Positions 3,393 through 61,690 of a DNA stretch of 64,000 nt are shown one piece after another. The DNA comes from Onthophagus taurus (lineage: Eukaryota > Arthropoda > Insecta > Coleoptera > Scarabaeidae): positions 2,790,001-2,854,000 of the forward strand of contig NC_091973.1 in the NCBI RefSeq assembly GCF_036711975.1. Reading direction: 5' to 3'. The translations under genes and the position numbers were made by a program. Each line of letters starts with the position of its first letter. Positions within the stretch are counted from its first letter, which is position 1. The notes beneath the pieces were generated by a model. The model saw only the letters and a list, made by a program, of their open reading frames with translations. It did not search any database and had not been told where the DNA came from.

Positions 3393-3815
3393 TAATATAT
3401 ATACCCGTAAAAATTTTGACAATGAACAAATTTGAATATAAATGCTAATTAGCATATTTATGTAATTTTATTTCATCCTTGACTCAATCTGATGATTGCT
3501 TAAAATAAACAAAGACCGGTTCTAAGATTGAAAATATAAATAATACACTCATCGTGTTAATTTAAAAAAATGACGAATAATTTAACCAATAAATCACGTT
3601 AAACGTTTAAAAATCTAAACAAACAGCGTGAATCTGCTTTCACATCAAAAAGCTTACCACTTCTTTGTGAAAGTTTGACCGCGCGGTCATGGTCACAACA
3701 ATCGCCATTGGAGACAAACTTTCACACAGGTCGTTGAGCAATAAACGATATATTTACCAAAGCCAAATTTACACTCGATACAAAATTTCACAAAAATTAA
3801 AAAAAATTATTTCAT

Positions 3816-5093: not shown

Positions 5094-5149
5094 AATCTGT
5101 TTTAAATAATTAGGTTATTATTGTGTTAATAAATGGTTTATTTATTTAC

Positions 5150-5735
5150 CTGTTTATTTTCCAAAAACTGTGTGGGTTTGAATGTCGGAAGCAGTAAACT
5201 TTCTTGTCGGATAGTGATTGAGCGACTCAAAGGTTCATTTTCAAGTTGATCGCTTTCTAGTGGCCAAGCCTCCCGTTCGCGGTGACGATAAACGAGTGAA
5301 AACGAAGAACCGAGCACCTGCAGCAGACGGCACTCTCGATGACCAATTTGAATACAAACGGCGGATCTTTCGCACAGCCCAACACCATCAATGGGAAGAT
5401 GCGGAGACTCTCACTTTTGTTTTAAACCAGAAACCAATTAATTTTTTTTACAAAACAATATTAGAAAATCGAATCGAAAAAACCGTTTTATTCCAAACTA
5501 ATTTTTTGTGTATCTTTTTTTTTTTAAATTTCGAAATTCGGAAAGACTTTCGTAATGAAGACATCCGACTTAGAGTTGCATCGCCGTTCCGTTTCGTTGA
5601 AACTCTTTCCGCTTTTTTAAGTAATAAGTTAGAAATTTTATTTATGACATTCCAACAGAAACTTGGTTATTATTATTACATTAGGAGATCTTATGCGGCT
5701 TTAAAATTAATTAAATTTAATTGTAATATAAAATA
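5150..5735 (-). promoter_or_regulatory. 5' leader and probable promoter side of the minus-strand gene
   Basis: The stretch begins at the predicted 5' UTR splice donor (5149/5150). It includes a GC-richer block at about 5215-5420 that is CpG-containing and unlike the AT-rich flanks. That composition fits a 5' UTR or promoter of the gene ending at 3816. No core promoter motif could be fixed by eye. Confidence 0.35.
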
Positions 5736-5895
5736 AAATATATAATATAAAATTATTATTATTGTAATATAAATTTTTATAAAATTTTATATATAATATA
5801 AAATTATTATTATTATAATATAAATTTTTATATATATTATAAAATTATTATTATTATAATACAAATTTTTATATAATTTTATATATATTATAAAA
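5736..5895. repeat. AT-only minisatellite, about three 53-bp units
   Basis: Roughly three imperfect copies of a unit built from ATATAATATAAAATTATTAT followed by ATAATATAAATTTTTATA-like sequence. It is pure A/T low-complexity DNA without coding potential. Confidence 0.7.
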
Positions 5896-6109
5896 AAATT
5901 AAAAAAATATTATTGTTGATTTAAATCAATAGTGTGATATTTTAAAAGCTTTTACTTGTTGACCCAAAAAATAAATAAATTTTATATATATATAAATAAA
6001 TTAAAATATATCGTTCTCATGAACTTTATTTGTTAAATTTTAATAAAAATATAAGAACAAAATAAAAAAAGAGTTATAGTAATAAGAAGATGTTAGATGT
6101 AGTAAATCG

Positions 6110-40181: not shown

Positions 40182-43100
40182 TCAGGCCACTTCACTAATC
40201 CTCGATAAATTAGTACTGAACGAATCCAATGGTCGCGGGCCTAACAAGGTGCTCAGAGAGAATTGCCACCGCATCTTCTGTTTTGTTTCCGACTTCTTGT
40301 AATCATCGTAATGTTTCAAGACGTGCTTTACGTTGTTATAACAGGTATAAAGTTCCCCTGCATTAACCTGAAACACAAAAATAATATTTTTTTAAAATAA
40401 AAAAAAAACATTTCTCAGAATTATTACTCATACTTAGTAGTAAGTAAACATATTTGAAAATTCCTTTTAAAATTATTTACTTACCATGCATACACTCTGC
40501 AGATCCACTATAACTGTTAAAAAACGTAAAATTTCAATAGAGTAATAAGGTGATTTTGAAGGAACTTCTGCGGCCAGAAATTGTTCAATTTCGTATTGTA
40601 TCAAAGCTAATGCAATCAGTGGGTAACGAACTGATGCACAAACATGGTTTATCATAACCACTTCAAGACGTCTTGATAATATCTTTTTCTGCAACAAAAT
40701 CATTGATTAAATTAACAATATATAAAAAAAACCTTTAGAACAAAAGTTGTAGTAAATTTTGTAAATCACTCGGGATTCAAAGCGTGAAACCAAGTCTACC
40801 CTGCTTGAAGTTTATGTACGTAAGTATCATTAATGACCAAGTAGTGTCATTAATGATACTTTGGGCGGATTTGAAGTCGGCCGAGAACGAACAATACTTG
40901 GGTTGGGTTGGGTTTACAATTAACAACTTTATGGAACGAGTAATCTCGGCCGATTTCGAAGATGTAGGCCGCCCTTAGTTATATTTGTGATCTAAGAAAT
41001 AATCTCGGCTGATTTCGAAGACGTCGGCCGCCCAAACTATCGTTAATGATACTATTTGGTGCGGTCGACGTCTTCGAAGTCGGCCGAGATGATTTCTTAT
41101 ATCACGAACAATATTTGGGGTGGCCGATGTCTTCGAAGTCGGCCGAGATTACTTCTTATGTCACAAACAATACTTGGGTTGGGTTTAGGGTGTCCAGTCC
41201 CGGTATTTAGTCCCGGGTCCGTCTCGGGATTTCTTGAAAAAAATGTAGGTCCGGGACCACTAAGAAGTCCCGGGATTTTATAAGTCCCGAAATTAAGGAA
41301 AAAATTAAAATATCGGAACGACTACAACTAACAGGTTACAACCTGTTCAAAATATCGATCTCGAGGCACCGACTAGCTAACGGGTGATCTAACGAAACGG
41401 TTCTCCGAGTTCGTAAAAACCTAAATTGATAGGGGAATCACCGGCTAGAACGAGTTACGACTTGCAATATTTGTAGAATCGGTGTTATATACCGGCGGTG
41501 CTCCAGTTAATAGGTATAGTCGTGTGACACTGTGAGTTGTGGCTAGCCTGTGCTCTGGAGGTTTTTGTGTGCGCGTCAAATAATTTGTCATTAGCAGAAA
41601 AATTAAATAGGATATTTGAAAATGCAATGTCTACGTCCACCAGCACGAGAGCAATATCACCACCTCAAATTGGAACATCAACAAAAAATTCATTAATTAC
41701 AATAATCAAAGACGCCCTTTTCGAGAAAGGCGGTTGTCGAGGCAAGAATCTTCAACTATGCTACGAGTATTTGCTAACCATATCGCTCACGACTGTACAA
41801 TCGGAATGGGCGTTTACTATTGCCGGTTTTTTTGCAACGAAAATACGCTTGGTATTAGGAGATAAATCTTTAAACGCACTTTTAGCACTAAACCATATTT
41901 TAAAAAATAAATTTTTTTTTTAATTTCCTATTTTGTGATTTTTTTTATGTTTCTCTCATTCTATATAAATTTCTTTTATTCAATTGGTGAACTCCTACAG
42001 TAACACTAAAGTAAAAAACCCAAAGTACGTTTTTAACTGTTTTTTAAATATTTTTTTGCAAACGTATTTTGATTTCGGGACTATTTTCGGGAATTCGGGA
42101 CCTTTGGTCCAAGTACCGGGAATTAGAATTTAGTCCCGAATCCCGAAAACATTTTTAGTCCCGGGAATTGGACACCCTAGTTGGGTTGGTTTTACTATTA
42201 ACAACTTTATGGAACAAGTAATCTCGGCCGACTTCGAAGACGTCGGCCGCCCCAAGTTGTATTCGTGATATAAGAAATAATCTCGACTGATTTCGAAGAC
42301 GTCGGCTGCCCAAACTATCGTTAATGACACTACTTGGAGCGGCCGACGTCTTCGAAGTCGCCCGAGATGATTTCTTACATCACGAACAATATTTGGGGCG
42401 GCCGACGTCTTCAAAATCGGCCGAGATTACTTCTTATGTCACGGACAATACTTGGGTTGGGTTGGGTTGAGTTGCGTTGGGTTGGTTTTACTATTAACCA
42501 CTTAAGCATCTCGAACGAGACCCTCTCGCGCATCAAATGCCTTCCGATTTGCGCTATCCCGAGAAAAACCCTCGCATTAAGTGGTTAACAACTTTATGGA
42601 ACAAGTAATCTCGGCCGACTTCGAAGACGTCGGCCGCCCAAAGTATCGTTAATGACACCACTTGGTGCGGCCGACGTCTTCGAAGTCGCCCGAGATGATT
42701 TCTTACATCACAAACAATATTTGGGCCGGCCGACGTCTTCGAAGTCGGCCGAGATTACTTCTTATGTCACGAACAATACTTGGGTTGGGTTGGTTTTACA
42801 ATTAACGACTTTATGGAATAGATAATTTTGGTCCAAAGTGTCGTTAATGACACTACTTGGTGCGGCCGACGTCTTCTTTAATTAACAATATATTAAAGAT
42901 GAGTTAAATATTTACCTGTAACATTCTAGATGACAGTGGTTTGACGTTTAACTTTGTAGCAGCACATTCAAAAATACGCAAGAAGAGATTCAAATAGCTG
43001 TAAATGGTGACAGGTTGGGCTCGGGGCTCGATGTCCAATTTTTTCCGTATAATATCACACATTCGTTCCATATCGTTGATCGAACACTTCGTTTGCGAGA

Positions 43101-43452
43101 CGCTGATAAAAATATTTGGGTCAGCGGGTTGCTTGTGAATTTCGCACGAGATGTAGAGACAACTGATGGAAACGCAAGACAGGTACTTTTCCTGGACATT
43201 CATCTTGCTCAAGAATCGGTCGAGCAGAGTCACGGCCGTAAAGAAAGCCTCGGATGGGAGGCCCAAATAGAATTTGAGGAACCGGAGATTGCGAACTGCG
43301 ATTTCTCGCGCGGCAATCGCGCCTCCATCCAAGGCTTGCAAATCTATAGAGTGTTTCTCTTCTAAACCGAGAGCTTTTTGCAACTCGGCGGCGATTTGCT
43401 TTACGTTAGCATCCGGCACGGGCCGGCTCCGTCTTTTGCCCTTACGACTCAT
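40182..43452 (-). CDS. CycG: Cyclin G, complete, 3 coding exons
   Basis: Coding exons on the minus strand: 43452-42916, 40688-40485 and 40367-40182, all phase 0, giving 308 aa (vertebrate cyclin G1 is about 295). The cyclin box occupies roughly residues 45-150 (LDRFLSKMNVQEKYLSCVS; ISCLYISCEI), closely resembling the cyclin G signature LDRFLSKMKVQPKHLGCV. Exon 2 carries the second helical part (SRRLEVVMINHVCASVRYPL) and exon 3 the C-terminus with QKMRWQFSLST, matching the cyclin G1 tail. The N-terminus is basic (MSRKGKRRSRP). Cyclin G proteins regulate p53/PP2A and growth pathways rather than acting as core cell-cycle cyclins. Intron 1 (42915-40689) is filled by the GC-rich palindromic array and two nested transposon insertions. 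Confidence 0.93.
41186..42179 (+). mobile_element. hAT-type transposon relic, 994 bp, 8-bp target duplication
   Basis: Terminal inverted repeats are TAGGGTGTCCA and TGGACACCCTA, and both ends are rich in subterminal TCCCGGGA-type motifs. An exact 8-bp direct repeat GTTGGGTT lies at 41178-41185 and 42180-42187, the target duplication size of hAT elements. An internal frame (41537-41923) ends in a segment like the hAT C-terminal dimerisation domain: SEWAFTIAG matches the SERxFSxAG motif, followed by a Lys-Arg-Leu-type stretch and LNALLALNHILKN. The DDE catalytic core is missing, so it is an internally deleted, non-autonomous copy. Confidence 0.9.
41702..41923 (+). pseudogene. hAT transposase C-terminal (dimerisation) remnant
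   Basis: An open frame inside the hAT relic that ends at a TAA at 41921-41923. Only the last part of the transposase is recognisable (LLTISLTTVQSEWAFTIAG, then RLVLGDKSLNALLALN). A full transposase is about 600 aa, so this cannot be active. Confidence 0.7.
42498..42584. mobile_element. 87-bp TTAA-flanked mini-element
   Basis: Compared with neighbouring array units (ACTATTAACAACTTTATGG), this copy is split by an 87-bp insert that starts CCACTTAAGCATC and ends CGCATTAAGTGG, flanked on both sides by TTAA (42494-42497 and 42585-42588). TTAA duplication with CC...GG ends is the hallmark of piggyBac-type elements. There is no coding capacity. Confidence 0.65.
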
Positions 43453-44719
43453 CTCGGCTACAAACAGCGTTTATTTATTTCCTTCGACGGTCAGTCAGTT
43501 TTCCATACTTCGTACTGATTTGCAAAAAACAGGAGCAGGCCCTATCTGGGTAAAAAAAATTTATTAGATATTTAATATTCCAAGTTTAAATAAAATATTT
43601 CATAAGATTATAGAATGATGCAATAAAATGTCGAAATTAAAAAAAAATGTGTTGTAAACCAGGATAAATTAAATAAATAAACCGAAATAGGGCATTTTAG
43701 TACTACGCATTTTGTAAAGCCTCAAGGATTAGATTGTTAGCCGATCGTTTTATCAAACCGAAACAACAAACAATAATCCTTTGTTAGAAGTTACAAAAAA
43801 ACTTACACATCAAAAAACCCGTCTTATCTAAATTTTAATACAATATTAACTTACCCGGATGCTTTAAATTTGAAAATATGATTGCACTTCTCTAGTTAAG
43901 TTACTTGTTTCTCCTGCGAAGTAGGAAAAAAAGATGAATAACACTTGCAAACAAGTCGACTCGTTGAAGTATCGTATAAAACTGTTCCTAGTGCTATCTT
44001 ACGCAACCGTTATATTCTCGAAGCATAGAGGCCTTCTACATAAAGGCCAATTTCGCGTACTCACGTTTCGAGATCGTATCAATAGAGGACACCAATAACA
44101 AGAACGCAAAAACGTTTTAATCCTTTTACTTTATTACTGAACGAATCGTACCGAATGAAAGGTTTTAAAGATAACGTCCACTTATATCAATGAATTTTTG
44201 AACACGATTCAACTCGATTCCGGAATACCCATAATCTAGAAATTTCTACGGACAGGTTCTGACAGGTTAAGACTTGTTCGTATCCAAATATACCTGGAAC
44301 GTGAATAATTATGTATATTATCTTTGTAGTTTTAAATAAAAGATGGCGCTAGTTTGAATTATTTGAATTATGTCGAACAATTTATTGTATTGTTTGTTGT
44401 ATCACGAAGTTGCTATATTCATATTTAAAGTTATTATATATTTATTGTTATATAATAAGTATTGTTCGTGATATAACTTGAGGCGAAATTGTTAATAGTA
44501 TGTCGGTGCCCCCAAGTTATATTTATGAATACAACTACTCACGAATACAACTTGGGGCTGTACAAACAATAAAATGAGCTATAAAGTTGAAAAGTCTTGG
44601 ACACCCTTAATCGTTACTAGGTACTTACTAACTACAAAAAGGATGTTAGATCTTGATTAGATGAATTAGTTTGGAAGAGTATCTGTTGGAAGGTACACCT
44701 CTACTCGAAACTCTGCATA
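43453..44719. other. Cyclin G 5' leader and intergenic DNA
   Basis: The first 100 bp upstream of the cyclin G ATG are GC-richer and probably hold its 5' UTR and promoter. The rest is AT-rich with no gene seen. A few fragments of the repeat spacer (ATTGTTCGTGATATAACTTG near 44461) occur before array 2. Confidence 0.4.
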
Positions 44720-46466
44720 CCCCAAGTATCACGAATAATACTCATGTCGGCCGAGATTATTTCTTTCCATATAAGGACCAATAAAGGATACCATGAACAA
44801 TAATCTTGGCCGCTCTAAATATGACGAACAATACTTAGGGCAGCCAACATCTTCGAAGACGGCCGAGATTATTTGTTCCATAAAGTTATTAATAGTAAAA
44901 CCAACCCAACCCAAGTATTGTTCGTGATATAAGAAGTAATCTCGGTCGACTTCGGAAACGTCGGCCGCCCTAAATATTATTCATGATATTAGAAATCATC
45001 CCGGCCGACTTCGAAGACGTCGGCCGCACCAAGTAGTGTCATTAACGATACTTTGGGCGGCCGACGTCTTCGAAGTCGGCCGAGATTACTTCTTATATCA
45101 CGAATAATACTTGGGTTGGGTTGGTTTTACTATTAACAACTTTACCAACCCAACCCAATCTGCCACAATATGATAAACAATGCTTAGGTCGGCCGAGATT
45201 ATTTCTTATATCACGAATACAAGTTGGAGCAGCCGACGTCTTCGAAGTCGGCCGAGATTACTTGTTCCATAAAGTTGTTATTGTAAAACCAACCCAACCC
45301 AAGTATTATTCGTGATATAAGAGTAATCTCGGCCGACTTCGAAGACGTCGGCCGCCCCAAATATTGTTCGTGATATAAGAAATCATCTCGGCCGACTTCG
45401 AACACGTCGCCCACACCAAGTAGTATCATTAACGATACTTTGGGCGGCCGACGTCTTCGAAGTCGGCCGAGATTATTTCTTATATCACGAATACAACTTG
45501 GGGCGGCCGACGTCTTCGAAGTCGGCCGAGATTACTTGTTCCATAAAGTTGTTAATGATAAAACCAACCCAACCCAATACAGCCCAACCCAATCCAAGTA
45601 TTGTTCGTGATATAAGAAGTATTCTCGGCCGACTTCGAAGACGTCGGCCGCACCAAGTAGTGTCATTAACGATAGTTTGGGCAGCCGACGTCTTCGAAAT
45701 CAGCCGAGATTATTTCTTATATCACGAATACAACTTGGGGCGGCCGACGTCTTCGAAGTCGGCCGAGATTACTTGTTCCATAAAGTTGTTAATAGTAAAA
45801 CCAACCCAACCCAAGCATTATTCGTGATATAAGAGTAATCTCGGCCGACTTCGAAGACGTCGGCCGCCCCAAATATTGTTCGTGATGTAAGAAATCATCT
45901 CGGGCGACTTCGAAGACGTCGGCCGGTCCAAGTAGTGTCATTAACGATAATTTGAGCAGCCGACCTCTTCGAAATCAGCCGAGATTATTTCTTATATCAC
46001 GAATACAACTTGGGGCGGCCGACGTCTTCGAAGTCGGCCGAGATTACTTGTTCCATAAAGTTGTTAATGATAAAACCAACCCAACCCAATACAGCCCAAC
46101 CCAACCCAAGTATTGTTCGTGATATAAGAAGTATTCTCGGCCGACTTCGAAGACGTCGGCCGCACCAAGTAGTGTCATTAATGATACTTTAGGCGGCCGA
46201 CATCTTCGAAGTCAGCCGAGATTTTTGCATTATTTTTCTCGATATTTAAGCATCCGAGAGCAAAAATGATCTTAATGAACTTAATTATTCTATAAGTTTT
46301 TTTGTAGTATAGTCCGAATATCGAATATTTTATCATAAAAAATTGATTAATATATCTTAATTATGTTCTTAATTTCTTACCTTTGTTTGCTGCGTAGACG
46401 TCGTCTGAGATATTTCTTCCATAAACTTCAAGCAAGGTAGACTTGGTTTCACGTTCCGAATCCTGA
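44720..46466. repeat. GC-rich palindromic repeat array 2, intergenic
   Basis: Same family as array 1, mainly in the opposite orientation. About 14 palindromic blocks are separated by CCAACCCAACCC runs and ATATCACGAATACAACTTGG-type spacers. It ends at 46419-46466 with the reverse complement of the border seen at the start of array 1 (AAACTTCAAGCAAGGTAGAC, then TTGGTTTCACG). A direct repeat (TTTTTCTCGATATTTAAGCA at 46240, TTTTTCTCGATATTTACGCA at about 46487) straddles this end. Confidence 0.9.
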
Positions 46467-47069
46467 ATAATATCAAATTTTCCTATTTTTCTCGATATTT
46501 ACGCATCTGTGAGCAAAAGTGAAAGAAGGATCTAATTAAGGTTTGGATTAGAAGAAAAAAAAAGAAATATAATAGTGAAATTGCTACATTTCCAATACAT
46601 CAAATTGTTTAACAAATTCAAATAAACATTTACAATAAATTCAAATATACAACCATTAACCTAGTGTATTAACCATTGTACATAACTGTAACAATAAAAA
46701 AAAACAATACAATTTGGGTTGTTAAAGTACATTTTAAAGACTATGAAAGTATTTAACAATTGGTAATAAAAAGTACGATTAATAAACGGTTTCAAAATGT
46801 GTTTTTTTCCTATTTCACAACATAAATCTAAAAATAAGTTTGTCTTTTTTTGAAAAAATTTTCTTAAAAAGCAAAAAATGAGATATTTTTTAAGATCGAT
46901 TTATTTTTATCTTCTTTTAGTACAACGCCAAGAGTTTTTTTTGAGTATTCTTATAAAAAGAATTTTTTAAGATAAAGAGATTCATTTAAGTTTTACTGAG
47001 AACTACAACAACAACTCCATCATCATAGAATTCCATATTCTAGATACTCTAGATACATCTATTAATAAC
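46467..47069 (-). other. 3' UTR and flank of the IP3 receptor gene
   Basis: AT-rich noncoding DNA downstream (minus strand) of the IP3 receptor stop. Possible poly(A) signals are present on the minus strand. No other gene is visible. Confidence 0.4.
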
Positions 47070-50000
47070 CTACGATATATTTGGCGTTTGAAACAATGCC
47101 GACGCAGAATTCAACAACCCAATCCTTTGCTTTTGCTTCCGTTGTTCCGCCATTTGGTCTTTTAACTCCATCAATTGTTGCGATAAAGTTTGCACCAACA
47201 CTTGCGTCGTTTCTAGTTGTTGCTGAAGACTGCGCAATTCAATTTGCTCGCCATCCCCTTCCACCGAAGCCAAAGACATTGCACGTTTTCGTGGAAACCA
47301 TTCCAAATTCGATGCTTTTACCATCGATGATACATAACTTTCTGGACCCGTAAATTCCGTCGGATCTTTCACTTTTATCAATACTATGAAGTGAAGGTAA
47401 TGCCACATGTTGTGTTCACCTTTGATATGTTGTTCAAAACTTACAGTTTTATTATCAAATGCAGAACGATTTAATCCTACAACGATAAGAACTTTTTACT
47501 ATATTACATCGATATTTATTAATAAGTACCGCAAATAAAGCACGTATTTTTTAATGTAAGTTCCTTTTGTTGTTTTTCCGATCTTAAATCGGCGAATGTA
47601 TCGATGATGACACCAAAAATAAGATTAAGTACTATAATGATGACGATAAAATAGAAAAGGAGATCGTAAATAACCCGGGCTACAAAAAGCGCTTCCGTGC
47701 TGCTCCGAGCACGCAATATATCCCCGATTCCACCTCCATTTCTCAACCCTTGGTTAAGAGTGGTCAAGATGCACATTCTCAATGAATCGCAAGCTCTCTC
47801 TTTCGTTTCACCTTTCTCCCCATCCGTTGAATTACTAACAGCTAAAATAATCGTTAATTATTCAAAATTTTCTAATACAGCAAAATAAATTTGTGTGTTA
47901 ATAAAAGGCTCACATCAAAATCAATCAGAAATAAAGTTTAATCTAATTTTCTAAGATGCATCAAACTTAAAAAAATCACAAAAATCAAATTTTACCTTAA
48001 CCAAAAATTGCGCAACCCTAATTACAATGTGAATAATATAATATACATATAAATAAATATATGCTGTTTTTGATATTGTTTGGTTAAATACTTACGATCT
48101 TCGTCGACGTTGAGTAAGAAATCGTCCTTGAAAAACATGTAACCGATTATTGAGAACATGTAGACGAGTATTAACGCTAAAACGGCCGTTAAAACGATGG
48201 AACGTCCGTTTCTTGTTACGGAACGGATTACGTTGAGAAGAGTTTCTTCGCGATAAACAACATCGAATAACTAAAAAAAAATAATAATAAATTATAATTT
48301 TATAGATTTATGGTTTTGTGCTCACCAAAACAGAATAAAAGAATGGATTTATAACGATTCCTAATATACAAAATATAAGGTAACCCATATGATATAAAAG
48401 TTCAGCATCGGTGACGATCTTATGAACAGGTTTAGTGTGCGTCCCATGATTTCCCATGATGCTAAATAAATGAATACCTTTGAGAAGCACCGTTAAAGTA
48501 CCAAGAACTATCAACGTTGATTCTGGGCCGAGCGAAAATATAAGCCGTAGAATTGTAGATGCGACTAATGTCCTAATACCCGGCTCACGAGGTAGCTTAA
48601 ATACTATACCCGCTGCTGTCACCATTGTTATCCAAATTATACCCGACATTGTTGATCCTAATTCTATATAAAAAAGTATTATTTAATAATATTAATAATA
48701 ATAATTAATAATTTACCTGGTAATGGATTATCAAAAGGATAAAACAAAGCCATAATTAAATTGATAAGTACGGCACAATTAAATAATATATTACTCCAAA
48801 GTGACATGTAATTGCTGACCCAATACAAAATCGATTGTCCCCTAAGTTTTTTCTGCCATTTCATTTCGTTAAACATCGAATCGGTTCGTTCGAAAAATTC
48901 GCAAACTTTCGAACCTTGATCGTCTTTTTCGACGGTATTAAGTACTTTACCTTTGGTGTCTTCTGTAATGTACTCGCAAATTTCAGGAATAGGAAAAACG
49001 ATACGCTCCAATGTACGATCTTGTCGGACAATTTCTATTTGAGCTGTACGTTTTTCATAAAATCTCAACGCGTCAGCCGTTTTTTGGTCCGTAGCCGGAT
49101 CTGTTGGTTTTAAAAGAGCCGCTAAATCTTTGTTATGTTGGGCTAGTTGATAAAATAATATGTAAATGTTATGTCCGACATCGCGAGGTGAAACTCCGTT
49201 ATCGCTTCCGTTATCATCGTCGTCATCGTCATCTAAAGCTTCTTGATGGAATGCTTTACAAGCGACATCGACGAGTTGTTTTGGGTTCATGTTAAACAAT
49301 ATTCTTTCGGCGTTTTCAGTATCTCCACGACTTTCCATGATGGCAAGTAACAATTTTGAGGCGTTATTTTTCAACTCTAAAATAAGATCCATTCGAGATT
49401 TTCCTAAAGGGTTAATATCATTTAAAATGAGAGCGGTTATAATATCGAGGCCGTTCGATTCTTGCGTTGCTATACAATTTTGGTTTTCATGACATGGCCC
49501 TTGGCAATATTCCGTGAGCGTTTCTAACGTTTGGTTTATTAAAGCAACGTTATTTTCGTTTATGTAAAGACCTAAAAGTCCTAAACCACCGGTTGTTGAA
49601 CCACAAATACAATCGAGAAATAGGAGAGTTTCGGATACTAAGTTGTAATGAGTTTTATTATTTTGGTTTCTTAAGAGGTTTTGTAGTGATGAATTGTGGT
49701 TTTCGCAAAGTAGTTGTAAGAATCTTAGAATTGGTTGCATTATAAGTACTTTAGTTGATAAGACGTTTTGGTCGTCTTGTTCTCGGTGTCGTTCTAATTT
49801 TTCTGCTAATAAATCTTCGAATGTTGATATAGCCCCGGTTGGAACAGCCCCGTTTTCGTCTCCCGCTGTTATGTTTCTAACATGAGCGTAACTCATCCCC
49901 GTTGATTCAGCAGCCCTATTTAATTGCTCCCTTAAATCGTCGCTTATTGAAATACCATTCGTTTTATTTGGGTATTTTCTGTTTAATTTATCTGATTCTT

Positions 50001-53000
50001 TAGTGTCTTGTTTATCATCGTGAGCTTTTACCGTCATATCGGAGGTGTTTACAGTTACCGTTGATTTAATTTCTTGTTGGGCATCCCTCATTTTTTCATA
50101 AAACACTTTAAAGAACGATTGACTAAATTCACCGCGTAATAATTTTTTATACATGCTTTTTTGTATAATCGGATTACCCCCTTCTAAAAGTGCAATCCCT
50201 AACAAAATCGCCTCCTCAAATATCGAAGGAGAATGCACTGATTTTATAACTAATTCAACCACGAGATTTGACGCGCCCTCTTTATCAAGGTGAGTTTGTA
50301 CTTCGTGTAGAGTACGACCGGCTCTACTTAGTATTTTTGCTAAAATAAACACTAATTTATTAATTAATTCAAAAATCGGTTATTTAAGTTACCTCCAGGA
50401 CCGTGCATTGATGTTGAATATTTAAAAGTGTTAATATCGAAGGTTTCGTGTTTTAAAATAAAGGATTTTCCGAAATAACGTGCTAATAAACTATTACGTA
50501 ATACTTCACCCTGCAATTAAACAATAAATTAAATAAGAAATAAGAAATACAGTAAAAATTCGATATAATCGATCTGGTTAGAACGGACTTATATTTTTAT
50601 TGAACTAAAAGTGCGCGGGCACTTTGCCGCCAAAGTGTAATGGACATCAAAACCATGCAAAACAAGTTTAGTCGCTTCCCGCGCAAGATGTGTTAAGACC
50701 GAATGTTTGTAGTTTTAGTTGTTATTAAGTGCTACATTGTTGTATACTTAATTCAGTATTACTTTTAATCCGTTATATCGATATTTTACTATATTTAAAA
50801 TTATTTGAACGAATTGTAAATGAATTGTAACTAACCAAAACGAGGTTCATACATACTTACCGCTTCATTTTTAATAACTTTTTCACCCTTTTTACGTAAG
50901 CAATAAATACAAAAACTGTTGATCAAATAAAGTTCAAAATAAAAATGGTTTAAATTACCTTTTCGCCATAATCAGGATCAATAGCCATCATTTCGCGCAA
51001 CGTCTTTAAAACCTTCACGCAGAGCTTATCTTCTTTCTCCTCTAAAAGTTTTTCGGTGTGCTTTATTAATCTACAAATGAATCCGCCGCTTTCGCATTTT
51101 TTTCGCGCCTCCGTTCCGGGTGGAAACAATAATTCCGGTCTGTATAAAACGTCGACCAGCAAAGACAACTCAGATTGGACCAACGGTTTTAATTGATCCT
51201 CCAATAATGAGACGATATCTTGCAAGCCTTCGATAATACTGCGGTCTAATCTCATTAATTGCGATTGAGAACGTTCGATTTTTGGGCTTTTTGAGGCGTG
51301 TAACCATTTACTAGTTTGTTTTGATAAAATCGTCGCTTTATTAAACATTGCTACCACTTGACTTTCTAAATCTAATGGTATTGCTATTCCTCTTTTTTTC
51401 GCTATTTATTAAATTAACAAAAATAAAAACAAATTATTTGTAATAAAAGTAGAATTAAGTACATACCGACTTCAGATAAAGTACGTATACAATTTTCAAC
51501 ATTGAATCTTTGAGACGCTGATAACCAAGGGCATTGGGTTACTCTGAAGGCGGATTGTAAAAGTTGCACAAAAATTGGTTGACGGGTCTGAAAGGCGATT
51601 TTAACGTTATTAATAAAAAAGTTTTAATTTGTTGGTATTATTAGGGTTTTTTTAATGAATAAACGTTATTTGTTAATATATTTACGCTCAATCGGTTTCG
51701 GCTCGTCAGGATCAATTAATCGAGTTGAAATATCAACCTTATTTTTACGTTTATGGAATAAATGAAGTATTAGAGAAAAGCATGGACAATTTATTAAAAA
51801 AATGAAGATAAATTTTGCACTACCGAAGCAGGAAAGAAATCGAGAAATTACTTACGTTTTGTGGAAACGGCGCGTACTTTAACGGGCCGTTTACCGAAAA
51901 AGGATCGCAGTCGTCGATTGCGGAATCGCTCCAAAAAACCCTCGCTTCATGCAGATGTTTCTACCCATCACCCAAGATAAATACCAAAAAAAAATGTTTA
52001 CTGGCTGTATTGATAGCTATAACTACTACTATTACTACGATTTTTACTACTCTAAATAAGACAATTTAAATAAAAAAAAATTGTGATTGAAAATAATAAT
52101 TCAACACTTGCGTGATTCACTATCAATACAACTTTTGGTTAAGAGAATGCAAAAAGCAAATTAAGAATTAAAAAAAAATATTCTAAAAATATTCGAAATA
52201 AAAATAATCATGCATTTTACCCAAAAAATTAAAAACTCGACAAAATTAATACCTGTACTGTAGTGCTTTGATGAGAAAATGGACTACTAAAAAACGTCGA
52301 AATAATATTCATAACACCATTAGTAACATAATTTTCTAAAGCCTTATCCGGATGTTTGCGATCATGAGGTGCAGTCGCAATATCGGCCATATCAACAAGA
52401 AAAGAATTTTCGAACAAACTCCACATATGATTTGAGGTGTAAATTTCCTTCATTTCAACTTCTGTATCGATGTAACAATGATTTAAAAAACCCACATAGG
52501 CTTCTTTCACCTCTGGAATACAATCTCGATGAGTTACCATCGCCACAATATCATCTAATGGGAGTAAACTATGACATTTTATTTCCGTATACACATTTTT
52601 GCCCATTGTACAACAAGCAAGAAGTTTTACAAGCTCAACATGGTAACGAAGAGGACTTCCTTCATCCATGCTATGACGTTCTGAACGCATCATCTCAATG
52701 AAATGATTAAATGATGCTTTATCGTTATAAAAAACTAAAACGTCTTCACCGGCATTTATCAACTACAAACATTAATAATTAAATTTATTTTTTTAAATTA
52801 AAAAAAAAGTAATACCTCTTGCATAACTTTATCTTGACACTTTCGTATAAATTGATTCTCAGCTTTAACGATAGTTTGTAAAAATTTTAAATATTGCACG
52901 TGACGCCCATGGCTTTCAATACAATGCACAAAATGTTGTATGACTTTTTCGTTGACTTCATTGCACAAAGTGTGGTTGTCTTGGAATATTGAGCAAACGG

Positions 53001-56000
53001 TTTGAGCTTCTCTGATCTACAAAAAGTAAGTTATATCGATTTTATTGCAATATTTAGCGACGTACCCCGGGGTTTAAAAACAAATCCAAATGTTTATACA
53101 ATAATACTTGATTTTGTTGGTTTCCCAAACAAAAGTTTTGTAAAAATTCGTGTGCCAGTCGCATTAGTTCGTTCATTCTCACATCTTCTTTTTCATCGTA
53201 AGGGATTTGTAATAAATCCAAGACAACTGTGTGTACCCCAACGTTCCTGAGAAGACGTTGTTCGTGTTTTCTTGGTTTCATCGTTCCGGTAACGCCTTGA
53301 GCGCATAATTTATTCATACGAATCAAAATTTGTTGAATTTTTTTGTATTCATCCGCTTGATCTGGATGTAAAGGTGGCCCAACGTCTAAATTAATTGCAG
53401 AACCTTTCTTTTCAATCGAACTTAGCACAGGAGGTGATTTTCTTGGAGTAACTTCTTCTTCTTCTTCCTTGTTCTTTTTAGTTTCAGATGCCGCGTGATC
53501 TTCCACGCATTTTGATTTATAGACCCAAAGTTCTGATTTTTCAACTGATTGACGCAAAACATCCAAATCAACTTTAATTTGTTTGTAAGACTCAACATCG
53601 CTATCGGAAACTAACAGTTGTACTTGTCTGAAAGCTTGCAACACTTCTTGTCTTTGACTAAAGTGGCGAAATAATAAATGTAGAGCACCGGAAACTAGCT
53701 GCGGGTAATCATGCATCGTTAAATGCAATAAAACGCGTAAAAATGTTCGTCCACCGTGCCCATCAAGATCTAATTCAGTGCATTCTTTGGTGCTACCAAA
53801 AATTCCTTCAGCTTGACTTCCAATCAATTCTAAATCAATATTTTTTTGACCAAGTTGTAACGAGTCACCGGAATTTTTTTCCGACTCATCAAATTCTTGT
53901 TTAAAAATACTTAATAAACAGCTAATTCGAAAATCTAGTCTTACATCCAAAATAAACTACAAAAAATCAATTATTAAGTGAAAATATTAATTTATTTATC
54001 ACCTGTAATATTTCGATAATTTTTAATTTCGTATCCATAACTAAAGGATACTCTTTTAAATACTGAGTGTTTTTGTTGTGCTGATTAGAATTAGTGGAAA
54101 CAACGGATCGCCCAACGGGTCCTAATGCAAACGATGACATTACAGCGCCCATATCTCCGATTGTTCTCAGAACGCCACCTTCAGCTTTAACAGAATCGTT
54201 AACGATGAATAATTATTAAATAGTCATTTCACAAAAAAATAAACAAACAAAATTAAAGTCAAAGAAAAGATAATAACTTAGGGTTTAACTTAAAACCGGT
54301 CATAATCCTTTATTAAAAGTGTATCAAAGCTTATATTTTAAGATGATAAATCTAACAAGAAAAGGCTCAAAAGTGTCAATTTTAATCAAAGTATTACTAG
54401 GAATATAAAAATATATGATTTAGTGTTAACATGGCTTAGAAAAGATGCTACACTAACTTAATGAACATGGGTTAGGTTGGGTTAATAATTTATTAATTAT
54501 AACCTCGGGGATTCTCGGCAGATTATTACAAAAGTTGAATATTCTATAAAACCTGCTTCATCAGTGAACAGAATTTTGGTTAAAAAGTCTATTTCCCGTA
54601 AAAATTGACAAAATATTGATGTTGCGTATAAATAAAGACTTGCACACGTTGGAAGTTGTACCCACTTGAGCCGAAATTCTTCTCACACTTGCTTCGTGTT
54701 TTTCCTAAGTATTGTTCGTGATACTGATGATACTTGGGGAGATTAGTTCTTATATCATGAACATAACTCGGGGCAGCCGACATCTTCGAAGTCGGCCGAG
54801 ATTATTTCTTCCATAAATTTCAAGCAGGTTAAGAGAAATAATCTCGGCCGACTTCGAAGACGTCGGCCGCCCCAAGTATCAAAAAATAATTGCTACTTAA
54901 AAATAAAATTTTAATTTGGCACTCATGAGCCTATCATTGTAAAAAGTATAGTAAATGGCTGTAGGAGGGTTAAAACGATGACACGATGAAAAATGATAAA
55001 ATTAGTGATGTGCTAAAAGAACAAGGTTTAAAATATCAGCTTTCTAATATTATTTAAGTATAAATACCAACTTCATCTAAAAAAATAACTGGTTTTTATG
55101 TAAACCCCAAAATAATAGAACAAACAAAGAAAAGTAGACGACGAACGAGAAAATATATATGTAAATAGTAAACAATCACACTGTGCGTTTGTTAAAAAAA
55201 GGTAATACGCATGCATTTTATACCTCTATCTTCAGCTGCGGACGTGTCTTCAGCTGTGTATGGGAAAACAAATAGTTTGCACAAATTTGTTACAATCTAA
55301 ATTCGAATGTATAAAAAAAATACTTACATTCGACGTCGCCGGTTGGAAGTCGTCCATCGACGTAATCGTTTTCAGAAATGCAATCTAAAATACTTAGTAA
55401 CGTTTTCGTTAAACGCAATAAATCCCAAAAGCTATAGAATCCGAAGTAGATCAATTCTCTGGCCAATTTTACGACTTCGAATGTTAGCTTGTTTTGTTCT
55501 TGGTCGGAAAACGACCACATTTTCGCGACTACGTTACATAAATAATCTTCTACAAAGGCGATCGTTGAACAAAATTGTGCTCTTACTGCTTCTTTATTCG
55601 GATCTGGTGTTTTATTATTATCATAACTAAAAAAAATTAATTCGTTAACGAATTGAGGTGATGTATTAAAACACTTACTCTTGTATAGACATTTTTGATG
55701 GAATTTCTGACCAAAGCCTTGCATATTTAACTGGAGTAACTGGTTCTTGAGGATCTCTATCAACGTGTAAATGCAACATAAGTCGACAAAAAGACGCTCG
55801 AAGTTCATAACTAACGCTTTCGTCCGACATACATTTTAAAATCAGATCTATATCCAAGTGAGGTGAGAGATTGTTAAGTGCAAGGTATTGACGATTTAAA
55901 CACATATTCGAAAACAGATCTAATTGGTGACAATAATAATCTAAAATTGCTTGACTATCGCGATTGCCCATTTTGGCTTCTCGACACAAATCGCTTAAAG

Positions 56001-59000
56001 AAGCCGATTTTTGCCGATTATTCCACAACAACATCACGTGGCATTCTTCGACGAAAGTTAGAAGTGGTTCTAATTCGGCTTCGGCTTCGTCTTCTTGAAG
56101 CTGTTCGATTTGCGTCCGCATCATTCGAGTTTCGATGAGTATATCAGAATTTTTAGCGCTTAAAACGCTTTTACAGATCAATTCTTGAGTAACGGGAATC
56201 GCCTTTTTGTTTGAAATGCACAGATCAGAAAGATAATCGAGAAATCGCGACTCCCAGTTGTGCATATTTTTCCGTACCAACCCAACAAACGTTTCTATTT
56301 CCGCTGCCGTTATGTGCTTCTCGAGCAACTTCCGGTTGTTGTGCAATAATGCGGTTATTGTATCTTCTGCGAGAATATCGTAACCAATTTGTTTTTGCAT
56401 AAAACCAAAATGTTTTGCGATGTATTCCTAAATAAATAAATATATGCAATAAAATATAGTATAGAGGTGTTTTGTTTAGTTAGTATGAATGTGGTTTACT
56501 TGATTTTTTCTGTAATCTTGTTGGCTTAAACGAAGTATTCTGTAACACAACCTAAAAATGTATTTGTATGGACCATGTCTTGGGTCGTTTAATTCATCCA
56601 AACGTAAAAATGGTTGCTCTCCATCAGTTTCCATAAAAGGGCCCTATTACAAGTACAATTAAAATATTATAACTATTAGAAATCTAAATAATTGTAATAC
56701 CTGCAAAATTTTAAACAGTTGTTTTAAAATCGCTTGTTCTCTAAGTAACTTTTGCCGATCCCTATTCGGATTAGTAATGGCTAATTCTAAAGCTTCCGTT
56801 TTGTTTTGTTCGTTCTCTAATTCCGCCACGAAATAAACAATATCTTGCAGCAAATTCGTAACCGCCCTAAAAAATTACTTTTTTAACTTTCCAAACTTGA
56901 ATCTGCTGTTGCGTCAATAATGTGTTTTAAGTATTGACGTTTATACAAATAAAAAGATTAATCACCTAAGTATAATTCGTTTTTCTATATATACATGAAT
57001 TAATTTATGGTGAAAATGGATAACAACAATCTCAATAAATAAAAACTATACCTTCTTTCATTATGAGATATCGTTCCTTTTTCCAATCTGAGAGATAACG
57101 ATGACAAAAGTTTACAAGCATCATTTGCAAAATCTAAATCGCGTACTTCAACGGGAGACACGGGGATTAAAGCGAATGCCTCCTTATCTTCCTTGGTCAG
57201 TGCACAACCAACTTTAGACATAACAGGTTTTTCTTCATCTTTATCAATTGGTACCGATGTTGAATGTACCCATGTATTGGTAACAACGTGGTGTAACCTT
57301 ACATAACTCGATTGCGGGATGAGGGAATCACCGCGAGTTAACGTAGTTGGATCTAATTCGAAAAGTAGACAAATCTCGTTAGGGCTAACATAAGGTATCA
57401 AATGATAGTTTGGTCCATCAACGTGATCCGAGCGGAGTTTTTCGTTTGGTTCGTTGTTATCAGCGTCGACGGTTGCAGCTAAATAATGTCCGGTGGCGAG
57501 ATGTTTAAACCGAAACAACGAGTTCCAATGTCCGGCTCCACCACGACATGGATCATGGTGAATGACTTCAATTTCCCATAAAGCTTTACTACTTGTCGCT
57601 GCCGTTGCGCTTGTTCTACCGGTTGTTCGTAAAAAAACATGTTGAGTTTTTTTGTACTCATCCATCGTGAGGAACTTTTCTTGTTCCGCGTGAAACAGCC
57701 GTACGACGTCTCCACCTTTTAAGACATCTTCAGCGTTTTCGCGGTGTTCTAGAAACAGAGTAATTTTCCAAGAAGACGTTCCGTTTACTACATTAACTTC
57801 TTTACAACCGGGATTATCAGGAAGTTCATGATTGGCGGCAACGTGAAGTACTTGTTGCCCGGTATTAACCGGATTTAATATTACTTTATCGCCGAGGACT
57901 ATGTTATCACCATTTGCGCGTAATTTATAAAACGGTAAGATGTAAAACCAGGAACCTTCATTTCCGTTGCCATCCAAGTAAACTCGCATCGCGTTCTTTT
58001 CTAGCAACGCCGGCAAACGTTTGTTTACGGTTAAATATTTATTGGATTTTAAATGTAATAGCTATAAAATAAATATCGTTTTAGTTTATTGGGGAAAAAT
58101 CGTTTTAAATTAAAATTACTTGTACTGAGATTCCGTAATGCACATTTGAACCTAGCGTTTTCTTATGTTCGGTATCGTTTTGTTTCTTTTCGATTTCCGC
58201 TGCGTGCTATATTGGAGAAGATCAAAGAAAATTGTTATACAAACATTTTTTGCTTATTTCTTAATATCCCAAAAGATGTTGAATAAAATATGTAAATATA
58301 TTTGAATATTAATTAATGATGGCATTTCTATGTTTAGAATGTAAATACATTAATTTAATACATATATTTTATGACCATTCTATACAGTGTGTTTGATTAT
58401 AATTGTAACAACAGATATCTTGACCATATTGATCCATATCACTGAGGATTCTGCTTGAAGTTCATGGAAGAAATAATCTCGGCCCCAAGTATTATGAACA
58501 ATACAATAAGTCTACCTTGCTTGAAATTTATGGAAAAATAATCTCGGCCGACTTCGAAGACGTCGGCCGCCCCAAGTATCATGAACAACACAATAGTTCT
58601 ACCCTGCTTGAAATTTATGGAAGAAATAGTCTCGGCCGACTTCGAAAACGTCGGCCGCACAAAGTTTTGTCCATATTACTTGTCACGAACAATACTTGGG
58701 TTGGGTTGCGTTGGGTTGGGTTGGTTTTACTATTAACAACTTTATGGAACAAGTGATCTCGGCCGACTTCGAAGACGTCGGCCGCCCCAAGTTGTATTCG
58801 TGATATAAGAAATAATCTCGGCTGATTTCGAAGACGTCGGCCGCCCAAACTATCGTTAATGATACTACTTGGTGCGGCCGACGTCTTCGAAGTCGGCCGA
58901 GATTACTTCTTATGTCACAAACAATACTTGGGTTGGGTTGGGTTGGTTTTACTATTAACAACTTTATGGAACAAGTAATCTCGGCCGACTTCGAAGACGT

Positions 59001-60731
59001 CAGCCGTCCCAAGTTGTATTCGTGATATAAGAAATAATCTAGGCTGATTTCGAAGACGTCGGCCGCCCAAACTATCGTTAATGATACTACTTGGTGCGGC
59101 CGACGTCTTCGAAGTCGGCCGAGATTACTTCTTATGTCACAAACAATACTTGGGTTGGGTTAGGTTGGGTTGGTTTTACTATTAACAACTATATGGAACA
59201 AGTAATCTCGGCCGACTTCGAAGACGTCGGCCGCCCCAAGTTGTATTCGTGATATAAGAAATAATCTCGGCTGATTTCGAAGACGTTGGCCGCCCTAACT
59301 ATCGTTAATGATACTACTTCGTGCGGCCGACGTCTTCGAAGTCGGCCGAGATTACTTCTTATGTCACAAACAATACTTGGGTTGGGTTGGGTTGGTTTTA
59401 CTATTAACAACTTTATATAACAAGTAATCTCGGCCGACTTCGAAGACGTCGGCCGCCCCAAGTTATATTTGTGATATAAGAAATAATCTCGGCTGATTTC
59501 GAAGACGTCGGCCGCCCAAACTATCGTTAATGATACAACTTGGTGCGGCCGACGTCTTCGAAGTCGGCCGAGGTTACTTCTTATGTCACAAACAATACTT
59601 GGGTTGGGTTGGGTTGCGTTGGGTTGGTTTTACTATTAACAACTTTATGGAACAAGTAATCTCGGCCGACTTCGAAGACGTCGGCCGCCCCAAGTTGTAT
59701 TCGTGATATAAGAAATAATCTCGGCTGATTTCGACGACGTCGGCTGCCCAAACTATCGTTAATGACACTACTTGGTGCGGCCGACGTCTTCGAAGTCGGC
59801 CGAGATTACTTCTTATGTCATCAACAATACTTGGGTTGGGTTGGTTTTACAATTAACAACTTTATGGAATAGATAATATTGGTCCAAAGTGTCAAATTAA
59901 CAATATAGTAAACTTGGTGCGGCCGACGTCTTCGAAGTCGGCCGAGAATACTTCTTATATCACGAACAATACTTCGATTGGGTTGGGTTGGGCTGCATTG
60001 GGTTGGGTTGGTTTTACTATTAACAACTTTATGGAACAAGTAATCTCGGCCGACTTCGAAGACGTCGGCCGCCCCAAGTTATATTTGTGATATGAGAAAT
60101 AATCTCGGCCGACTTTGAAGACGTCGGCCACACAAAGTTTTGTCCATGATACTTGAGGATCAACATTTTGTCATATCTCCAACAATAATCAAGATATCCG
60201 CTGCGACAACTAAAATCAAACACACTGTATATGTATAACCTTCAGCATTTTATTTTACCTTGAAGTATCTAAAATATCAGATAACAATCTGTTTAAAAAC
60301 TGTTATATTGATGCAAATTAATACAAATTTAAAACGCTCAAGGAACTATATTTATAAAATAAAAAAAATAGATGTAATTACTTAATAACTTACATGTAAA
60401 CGTTTTAAGAGATTTGCATCTGTATTCGAGCCCATACTTTGTTTTGCGGCTTTCCAAAATTGTTTTTGTGCAGAATACCGATTTGCAGGACATATTTTAA
60501 ATAAACAATCTATAAATGAATTAATGATATTTGAATAAAGTAAATGTAAAATTTTTGTTTTGTACCTCTAAATTTTTTTGGTGGTGTTACTAAATCTCCT
60601 GCATCCGGGCAAACAACACACCGGTCATCGACTAACCCTAAAGTACTTAAAAACCCACTAACGTTCCCTTCTGCATAAAGGGAAACGATATCACCCATAT
60701 GAAGTAAACTTGATGATCCCATCTCAACCAT
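47070..60731 (-). CDS. Itpr: Inositol 1,4,5-trisphosphate receptor, complete, 20 exons
   Basis: ER calcium-release channel gated by IP3. Exons: 60731-60566, 60509-60394, 58206-58120, 58061-57052, 56866-56701, 56643-56500, 56427-55679, 55626-55328, 54184-54003, 53956-53066, 53016-52816, 52762-52253, 51587-51467, 51401-50959, 50510-50393, 50339-48717, 48663-48326, 48270-48096, 47841-47530, 47476-47070. Phases join and give 2685 aa. The ATG context is CAAAATGG. Visible parts: N-terminal beta-trefoil/MIR region ([20 protein letters not shown]); IP3-binding residues RTTGR at 268-272, R495/K499/R502 in [11 protein letters not shown] and R595/K596 in [10 protein letters not shown], all conserved; RIH-type helical domains; a run of membrane segments from about residue 2220; pore filter GGGIGD at about 2482-2487; and the CFICG...H zinc-finger-like linker with the C-terminal coiled coil ([19 protein letters not shown]). 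Introns 2 and 8 carry GC-rich repeats. Confidence 0.98.
51856..51960 (-). CDS. Itpr: Candidate 105-nt cassette exon of Itpr
   Basis: Within the intron between exons 12 and 13, a block with acceptor GATGGGTAG and a perfect donor GTAAGT is exactly 105 nt, open in the phase required (phase 0 both sides), and far GC-richer than its AT-rich surroundings. It would insert 35 residues (starting [19 protein letters not shown]) between Gln1507 and Thr1508, that is between STTVQ and TRQPIF. I do not know this insert from IP3 receptors I can recall, where these two motifs are contiguous. Optional inclusion is inferred. Confidence 0.6.
54470..54885. repeat. Small copy of the GC-rich palindromic repeat in Itpr intron 8
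   Basis: Contains GGGTTAGGTTGGGTT, spacer pieces such as AAGTATTGTTCGTGATACTG, half a palindrome (CATCTTCGAAGTCGGCCGAG) at about 54781, and one complete palindromic block at about 54846-54870. It is diverged and short compared with the main arrays. Confidence 0.75.
55224..55253 (-). CDS. Itpr: Candidate 30-nt microexon of Itpr
   Basis: In the intron between exons 8 and 9, a 30-nt block has a strong acceptor (TTTTCCCATACACAG) and a donor (AG/GTATAA). Flanking phases fit exactly: T from exon 8 plus CT opens a codon, and the final G plus CT of exon 9 closes one. It would add ten residues, reading [10 protein letters not shown] before [10 protein letters not shown]. By eye the site corresponds to the small alternatively spliced SIII insert of vertebrate ITPR1. 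Confidence 0.6.
58383..60229. mobile_element. 1.85-kb TA-flanked element carrying GC-rich palindromic array 3, in Itpr intron 2
   Basis: The ends are inverted repeats of about 40 bp: left TACAGTGTGTTTGATTATAA through AACAGATATCTTGA, right the complement (TACAGTGTGTTTGATTTTAG through AGCGGATATCTTGA). TA flanks both sides (58381-58382, 60230-60231), as for Tc1/mariner-type insertions. Inside, from about 58444 to 60140, lie six to seven tandem units of about 220-230 bp, each with two or three palindromic blocks, a TTGGG run and the ACTATTAACAACTTTATGGA spacer. No transposase is encoded. Either the array arose inside the element or the element captured it. Confidence 0.7.
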
Positions 60732-61180
60732 TTTTGAGGTTATAGTTGAGTTTTTTAATTTTTAGGTTAAAGATCAGGAAAACATGTTACTTTTCTCTCA
60801 TTTGTCTAAAATAAATTAATATAAATTGTATAAAAAAATAAAAATATTAAAACTAGTTTTTTTTCTTTTAATGGTTTTAAAGTAATTACAAAATAACTTA
60901 CCTAGCACGGAGAGGTTATGATACCTTCCTGCTAGTTTCTATTTAGAATAAAAACTAAAAACGAGAATTTTCGTCGCGAATCACATGTAATACTGAGAAT
61001 TTCCGTATAAAAACGATAAAATTCAGTAAATTTACATAAACAAGACCGAAGACGTACACGATACGCACAGCTTAGTTTCAAACCACATACATATTTGTGG
61101 ATTCCTGCTATATTTTTGTTACCACCTTCTATCTTTTTCCTATCTATTAACAAACCCATCTTCTATCTTTGTCATTTTAT
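60732..61180 (-). promoter_or_regulatory. 5' leader and probable promoter side of Itpr
   Basis: On the minus strand a good donor (GTGCTAG/GTAAGT at 60902/60901) and a good acceptor (TTTATTTTAG ending at 60806) suggest a 96-bp 5' UTR intron, with the leader resuming at 60805 and reaching the ATG at 60731. The upstream exon end is not determined. Confidence 0.5.
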
Positions 61181-61494
61181 TTTGAAAAATAATAGTGGGG
61201 AAAATTTAATCCTAATAGAATCCTGTATACGTCTCAATTAAGAAGCAACAATAAGATTGTTCCTTAAATTGAAGACTTCGTTAAACATTAATAAAAGAAG
61301 AAAATTTTTAATTCTTCTTTTTTTTTAATATTAGCACTCATTTTTATACGTTTTTTGGTGTATTTTTAATTAAAACAGTTTTCTTTTCTTTTTTTATATA
61401 GTGAAAACTCTATGTTTTATCTCTTTCTTTGATTTATATTGTTATTAACATTCTAGTTTTACAAGTAGTTATTGCTTGAAGAAAGAAAGGTATA

Positions 61495-61690
61495 TCTCGG
61501 TCGCTCTAAATGTTGTTTATGATACTTTAAATTTTAAGTATTCGAAGTCGGCCGAGATTATTTCTTCAATAAAGTTGTTAATGGTATCACTTGGAATTCG
61601 GAGTATTAAACCATGCCTATCTTGCTTTAAATCTCTAGTGATACTATTAACAACTTTATATAATCTCGGCCGACTTCGAAGCCGTGGGAA
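61495..61690. repeat. Degraded fragment of the GC-rich palindromic repeat
   Basis: Holds half-palindromes (TTCGAAGTCGGCCGAGATTA at about 61540; AATCTCGGCCGACTTCGAAG at about 61662), the TAAAGTTGTTAATGGTA spacer and a decayed border motif (TTAAACCATGCCTATCTTGC). Confidence 0.75.

Follow-up and report, generated by a model that had tools for sequence, protein, structure and literature searches.

What keeps a short block of DNA constant when the repeats that carry it change is the question raised by a 64-kb stretch of the genome of the beetle Onthophagus taurus (C8:2790001-2854000, the whole of which we call the window). Here the 25-mer CGGCCGACTTCGAAGACGTCGGCCG, in the following the block, is found 47 times with at most three mismatches, 26 of these copies being exact, and not a single time in 100 dinucleotide-preserving shuffles. 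At 20 of its 25 positions the block agrees with its reverse complement, and it is present in both orientations at 40947-42751, 44943-46218, 54774-54869 and 58545-60130, so that the repeated near-palindrome described in an original prediction made from the letters of the window is confirmed.

Concentration of the block on C8

In order to see how far the block extends beyond the window we searched the genome (290.8 Mb in 33 contigs) and found 1,320 exact copies (650 on the + and 670 on the - strand) and 2,406 copies with up to three mismatches, compared to none for the reversed pattern as control. Positions were available for the first 100 exact copies, a set that is complete as far as C8:1753532. 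Within this complete part the first 1.75 Mb of C8 contain 55 exact copies in 10 clusters (31.4/Mb), and contigs C1 to C7 (194.2 Mb plus C4 with at most about 12.5 Mb) contain 45 copies in 23 clusters (about 0.23/Mb). The density on C8 exceeds that on C1 to C7 by a factor of 135 to 144 in copies and of 48 to 51 in clusters (for the latter, Poisson P about 1e-14), and the concentration on one chromosome, which lay beyond the view of the original prediction, is the strongest fact of the analysis. Among the exact copies with a base other than T in front of the block, for which the list is complete, 32 of 34 are located on C8 and two on C6; for the 241 copies preceded by AVCT, the 100 listed comprise 84 on C8 and 16 on C1 to C7. 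The spacers between the blocks gave 47 of 50 matches on C8 for one stretch (best 40 of 82 candidates scored) and 45 of 45 for another, and they are mostly 90-96% alike at C8 sites that are megabases apart. As a control we mapped the insertion nested in the first array of the window (described below), which has 13 matches. Three of them are located on C8, namely the insertion itself and two matches further out than 14.9 Mb, and ten elsewhere, so that the control shows no C8 excess.

Among the places seen on C8, exact copies range from 0.15 to 9.0 Mb and spacer matches from 0.03 to 9.5 Mb, and six 3-kb samples taken beyond 10.5 Mb did not contain the block (best 11 mismatches), three of the six being a 152/153-bp satellite. 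Dispersed single and paired copies are present on most large contigs. The exact copies are thus spread over several contigs instead of being restricted to this one locus, and local segmental duplication is ruled out by those on C1, C2, C3, C5, C6, C7 and C8 as well as by at least one on C16.

In O. taurus, C8 is probably the X chromosome. All six genome matches to the plexin cytoplasmic domain are located on C8, at 1.01 and 4.19 Mb, and the window itself carries a MUN-domain exon resembling CAPS. In Drosophila, plexins and Caps are found on the fourth chromosome, the presumed counterpart of the ancestral insect X. One male was the source of the O. taurus assembly that has been published, and in this assembly Scaffold 8 is the X (PMC10942260).

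Divergence of block, spacer and stem

As searching by the block favours intact blocks, we added searches that used only the flank. An 82-bp spacer was used as query and 40 of 44 non-self matches on C8 were read, three short matches at 2.39-2.40 Mb and one short match at 3361548 being left out of the count. In the copies found this way 36 of 61 adjacent block places are exact. Where the spacer has diverged to 89% identity or less, the exact block is still present at 31 of 46 places, with 1.2 expected at the spacer rate and 7.4 at half of it, and nine of the 46 are occupied by unrelated sequence (13-18 mismatches).

A time course was obtained from 732 alignments of at least 120 bp that were seeded only outside the blocks, binned by one half of the spacer sites and compared at the other half; it supersedes an earlier alignment with seeds allowed in the block (5.8% difference in the block, 16.0% in the spacer). 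With rising divergence the differences in spacer and block were 1.5/2.2, 3.8/3.2, 7.6/4.7, 10.4/5.9, 15.3/8.7, 17.4/10.5, 23.6/8.0 and 26.4/8.5%. The block therefore differs about as much as the spacer as long as the latter differs by less than 5%, and by only about 8% once the spacer differs by 20% or more. In recent duplicates block and spacer decay alike and the block outlives the spacer only over longer divergence, meaning that the better conservation claimed for the block holds among old copies but not among young ones, and that equal divergence in all copies is not what we find. Equal early decay followed by a plateau suggests that the block is needed for spread or is repeatedly renewed, rather than being under strong selection in each copy.

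A second version of the block behaves similarly. Type 2, CGGCCGTTTTCGAAGACATCGGCCG, has CGGCCG..TTCGAAGAC.TCGGCCG in common with type 1, and its 79 exact copies are distributed over C16 (39 copies on 3.24 Mb), C8 (5) and C2, C3, C5, C6, C7, C10, C11 and C15 (35 together). In a search with a 106-bp flank of type 2 (best 40 of 64 candidates scored, 34 of 40 non-self matches examined) 27 of the 34 matches have a recognisable block and seven do not. Exact blocks are present in 14 of the 27, compared to 0.8 or 3.7 expected, and over all 27 the divergence is 7.7% in the block but 17.1% in the flank. Because the genome source was a male, C16 is possibly Y-linked; it may be Y-derived or else an unplaced autosomal part. 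By eye, an apparent kinase gene is visible in one of the C16 pieces (L077) with block copies, which are also found for example in L078.

We then asked which part of the block is constant. Over 307 copies from the C8 pieces, taken with up to six mismatches, each position of the core TTCGAAGA has 1-10 changes, whereas 16-29 are seen at each of the five outermost positions of either arm and 4-22 at those in between. C-to-T and G-to-A together make up 199 of the 338 changes. Composition explains part of this contrast, but C/G positions taken by themselves also show 5-10 changes in the core and 8-29 elsewhere in the block. The core and not the palindromic arms is the least variable part of the block, which corrects the original prediction. 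As a single strand the type 1 block folds with -9.8 kcal/mol, a value reached by one of 200 shuffles, and type 2 with -6.4 kcal/mol. Among 86 distinct block variants, limited to six mismatches, 190 changes in the stem pairs are one-sided, three are two-sided with pairing kept and six are two-sided without. As the stem changes are uncompensated, pairing is not the property that is kept, and a conserved hairpin or cruciform, as originally suggested, is not supported as the constraint in view of this result and of the loss of part of the stem in type 2.

Among the alignments listed, several otherwise unlike autosomal loci align over just 45-57 bp around the block, and other pairs share more. For a short site kept in different repeats a sequence-specific protein would be the simplest reading, and together with the constant core this makes the previously suggested protein binding plausible. 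The arms may nevertheless matter physically, since in a few copies the core has been flipped in place. At a C8 locus at 1.74 Mb (L058) it has one orientation in two unit copies and the opposite one in a third with identical flanks (positions 1473, 2406 and 3339 of this locus). Using a simple rule, flipped cores were found in five of 227 C8 copies, three of them clear and two of these being copies of one event. As five changes occur together in a flip while the arms stay as they are, template switching or conversion via the arms is indicated. The core is also inverted between unchanged flanks at C8:3542659.

What may keep the block

The family has a mosaic make-up, and the explanation we prefer, although for us it is an even call, is a composite and dispersed euchromatic satellite concentrated on the X-like C8, whose module is putatively recognised by a protein and kept via spread and homogenisation. 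In such a satellite a module of about 45-57 bp (the block together with some 10-15 bp to its left and right) would form short arrays in introns and intergenic DNA, its copies having either orientation and exchangeable spacers. The family is concentrated on the gene-bearing part of C8 that includes the window (seen from 0.15 to about 9 Mb). A sequence-specific DNA-binding protein might recognise the block through its core, framed by CGGCCG..CGGCCG. Spread, amplification or the conversion of other copies would then proceed from those copies whose block is intact, chiefly within C8. Preferential spread of this kind would let fresh duplicates decay like the spacer while the lineage keeps the block.

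Several points weigh against this explanation. The C8 excess is based on 100 of the 1,320 exact positions, the other 1,220 being outside the list, its specificity on one mapped control family instead of a ranking of all families, and the X status of C8 is one that we infer. No block-binding protein is known and none was found. Next to C8 spacers with more than 89% identity only five of 15 block places are exact, with about 6.2 expected without constraint, and five of the 15 are unrelated sequence. The alignments of the time course are not independent, and extension through intact blocks can still favour blocks; more generally, copies and alignments have higher-order units in common. In a cruder and weaker test, in which spacers 3-8 mismatches away from the nearest known spacer were used, the per-site difference of recognisable blocks is 10-18% on the right side and 4-12% on the left compared to 9-24% for the spacer, with no clear difference between block and spacer on the right.

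The dispersed single and paired copies and the many units with paired inverted blocks could also be explained if the module was a transposase-binding or other cis site of non-autonomous DNA transposons, of which only site-bearing copies move, with tandem growth on C8 accounting for the rest. A master-copy model indeed predicts a constant lineage with unconstrained fresh copies. However, in most of 30 aligned loci the supposed ends lie between two inverted blocks, and among the open reading frames examined no partner transposase was present: those of at least 110 amino acids were listed in 17 loci, and Pfam applied to five near autosomal copies gave hAT, HTH, RNase H and YqaJ domains. Moreover, a roughly 50-fold cluster excess on one chromosome would be unusual for such elements, and we consider this explanation rather unlikely. 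As neither ends nor target-site duplications are established we do not file the family as a transposon. There is good support for the block as a subrepeat, namely one of a dispersed repeat of satellite-like kind, and the original proposal of either a selected element or a subrepeat of a mobile element is supported in part. Somewhat less likely again would be an X-recognition element, where a DNA-binding protein recruits the machinery of dosage compensation, or other chromatin machinery acting on the whole X, to the one X that males have. Such a role would fit the strong C8 excess with arrays within and between genes, a block that is constant over the long run and the probable identity of C8 as X. 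Published data on chromatin accessibility in O. taurus (PMC10942260) are consistent with it in so far as the X carries 52.3% of the 151 regions with greater openness in minor males and 55.7% of the regions more open in females than in major males, and in so far as open regions of recent origin are repeat-rich, but the same paper gives no X excess of differentially open regions between minor males and females. A contribution of euchromatic X satellites to the recognition of the X is described for Drosophila (PMC7919458, PMC6063223). Fresh copies of the block are without visible constraint, which speaks against an X-recognition element, though 1,000 redundant sites could mask selection.

We are more doubtful whether the palindrome itself keeps the block, with arms that favour pairing, a switch of template or gene conversion over short tracts, and without any binding protein. 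The cores flipped between unchanged flanks, the equal decay of block and spacer in recent copies and the well-folding GC-rich arms would agree with this, but the asymmetric and less GC-rich core varies less than the arms, stem changes are uncompensated and type 2 with its weaker stem is likewise kept beside diverged flanks. The boldest and in our view least probable proposal is that of chromosome-specific palindromic address tags, with type 1 marking the X and type 2 another chromosome and with related DNA-binding proteins reading them. If true, these tags would serve X recognition for dosage compensation or the joining of X and Y in male meiosis.

To our knowledge it is not known how beetles distinguish the X from autosomes at the DNA level. 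According to a 2025 review, dosage compensation in the flour beetle is controversial. A constant 25-bp block with an about 50- to 140-fold excess on the putative X offers a concrete probe in a beetle for which accessibility data have been published. If the family was no more than a selfish satellite, it would still provide a clear signature in the sequence by which a repeat kept through its spread can be told from one in which every single copy counts.

The arrays of the window and known systems

The arrays lie beside a Cyclin_N-domain exon (42904-43452, - strand), between this exon and an IP3-receptor-like gene and among the exons of the latter (RIH_assoc, RIH and Ins145_P3_rec/MIR, 48.7 to 58.0 kb, - strand), all identified by Pfam. 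Array 1 (40769-42881) adjoins the cyclin exon and array 2 (44841-46226) is located between this exon and the IP3-receptor-like gene, both with blocks in both orientations; an exact block is for example found at 45002-45026 on the + strand. The spacer that opens array 1 at 40769 has an inverted copy with 89% identity at 46420-46466 (C8:2836420-2836466, - strand). A unit with two blocks, the first in - and the second in + orientation, is located at 54739-54885 between the RIH_assoc and RIH exons. Array 3 (58445-60146), consisting of higher-order units of about 222 bp, is located upstream (in the sense of the gene) of the MIR exon, and degenerate remnants with partial blocks follow at 61496-61690, with pieces at 61530 (eight mismatches) and 61667 (five mismatches). 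Tandem arrays of the family in the window have units of 59, 222, 237 and 449 bp. Over roughly 146 kb of C8, of which the window makes up 64 kb, one block most often follows the next at a step of 53, 56 or 59 bp, and the 271 neighbouring pairs less than 400 bp apart are oriented +- (101), -+ (89), ++ (41) and -- (40). The variant CGGCTGATTTCGAAGACGTCGGCCG has three copies genome-wide, every one inside the window, and block versions with C or G at position 7 have six copies.

Array 1 is split by the nested insertion used as control family (41187-42180), which has inverted ends and is hAT-like by eye, its ends also being placed by eye. Pfam showed no domain in its open reading frame at 41537-41923. 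The insertion is probably recent, as its first 144 bp have matches of 95-97% at six further places. Three further tandem arrays of the window at 7621-11263 (about 170 bp), 16412-19666 (171/342 bp) and 21540-27340 (176 bp), all unit lengths being approximate, are AT-rich and by eye unrelated to the block. Spacers of the L058 arrays resemble a 153-bp satellite sampled at 20.0 Mb of C8 (L064; 76-87% over 47-112 bp), so that block modules and pieces of C8 satellite appear to be mixed there. The YqaJ-domain reading frame mentioned above sits in an insertion (about 3517-5940) inside an array of block-bearing units on C3 (L048), where the YqaJ-like coding region is broken.

Matches to TTGGGTTGGG or CCCAACCCAA in the window are located within the array regions (40769-46468 and 58440-60150) in 29 of 30 cases, and these regions carry telomere-like DNA inside a euchromatic repeat. 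TTGGG is the repeat at the start of C8 (first 600 bases), presumably the C8 telomere, and PMC8233369 refers to TTGGG repeats in database records of three scarabaeoid beetles including O. taurus. Known RNA families were not detected at gathering thresholds in 40000-62000, and the exact 25-mer is absent from the viral contigs searched. The open-access literature covered contained no match to pieces of the 25-mer or its reverse strand, and nothing on Onthophagus with respect to satellite DNA and the X or to X-linked repeats and dosage compensation.

By its organisation the family would be nearest to the euchromatic satellites of the Drosophila X, such as the 1.688-related and Rsp-like repeats, with which it has in common the short arrays in X euchromatin, the strong X excess and insertions within arrays. 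A 15- to 50-fold X excess is reported for X-linked satellites of the Drosophila simulans complex, as is insertion into the arrays of other satellites (PMC7919458), and X-linked repeats in Drosophila enhance dosage compensation nearby (PMC6063223). As in the 1.688 type, tandem units are found, as is an X excess in gene-bearing DNA if C8 is taken as the X, but the beetle unit is a mosaic in both orientations with a constant 25-bp near-palindrome.

The other systems are likened to the block by its motif. An excess of a short motif on the X, as expected for dosage-compensation sites, is seen for the block on the putative X, and like MSL recognition elements, some of which were spread by a Helitron on a Drosophila neo-X, it would be an X-concentrated motif carried by repeats. 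The MSL recognition element (MRE) is described as a 21-bp GA-rich motif; the block is not GA-rich. The block also resembles the CENP-B box in being a motif like a protein site that is constant across different repeats. The CENP-B box (nTTCGnnnnAnnCGGGn) and similar motifs are common to otherwise unlike satellites. By eye seven of the nine fixed positions of the box match the block, which has C at the central A and at the last G and therefore does not qualify as a box, and its copies are mainly found in gene-bearing C8 and not in the sampled satellite blocks. Finally, the pairing centres of C. elegans carry chromosome-specific motifs, and here the likeness would be that short motifs with a bias to one chromosome are present many times, related versions being found on others, although the block is spread over about 9 Mb of C8 and not confined to one end, and type 2 is biased to the contig C16.

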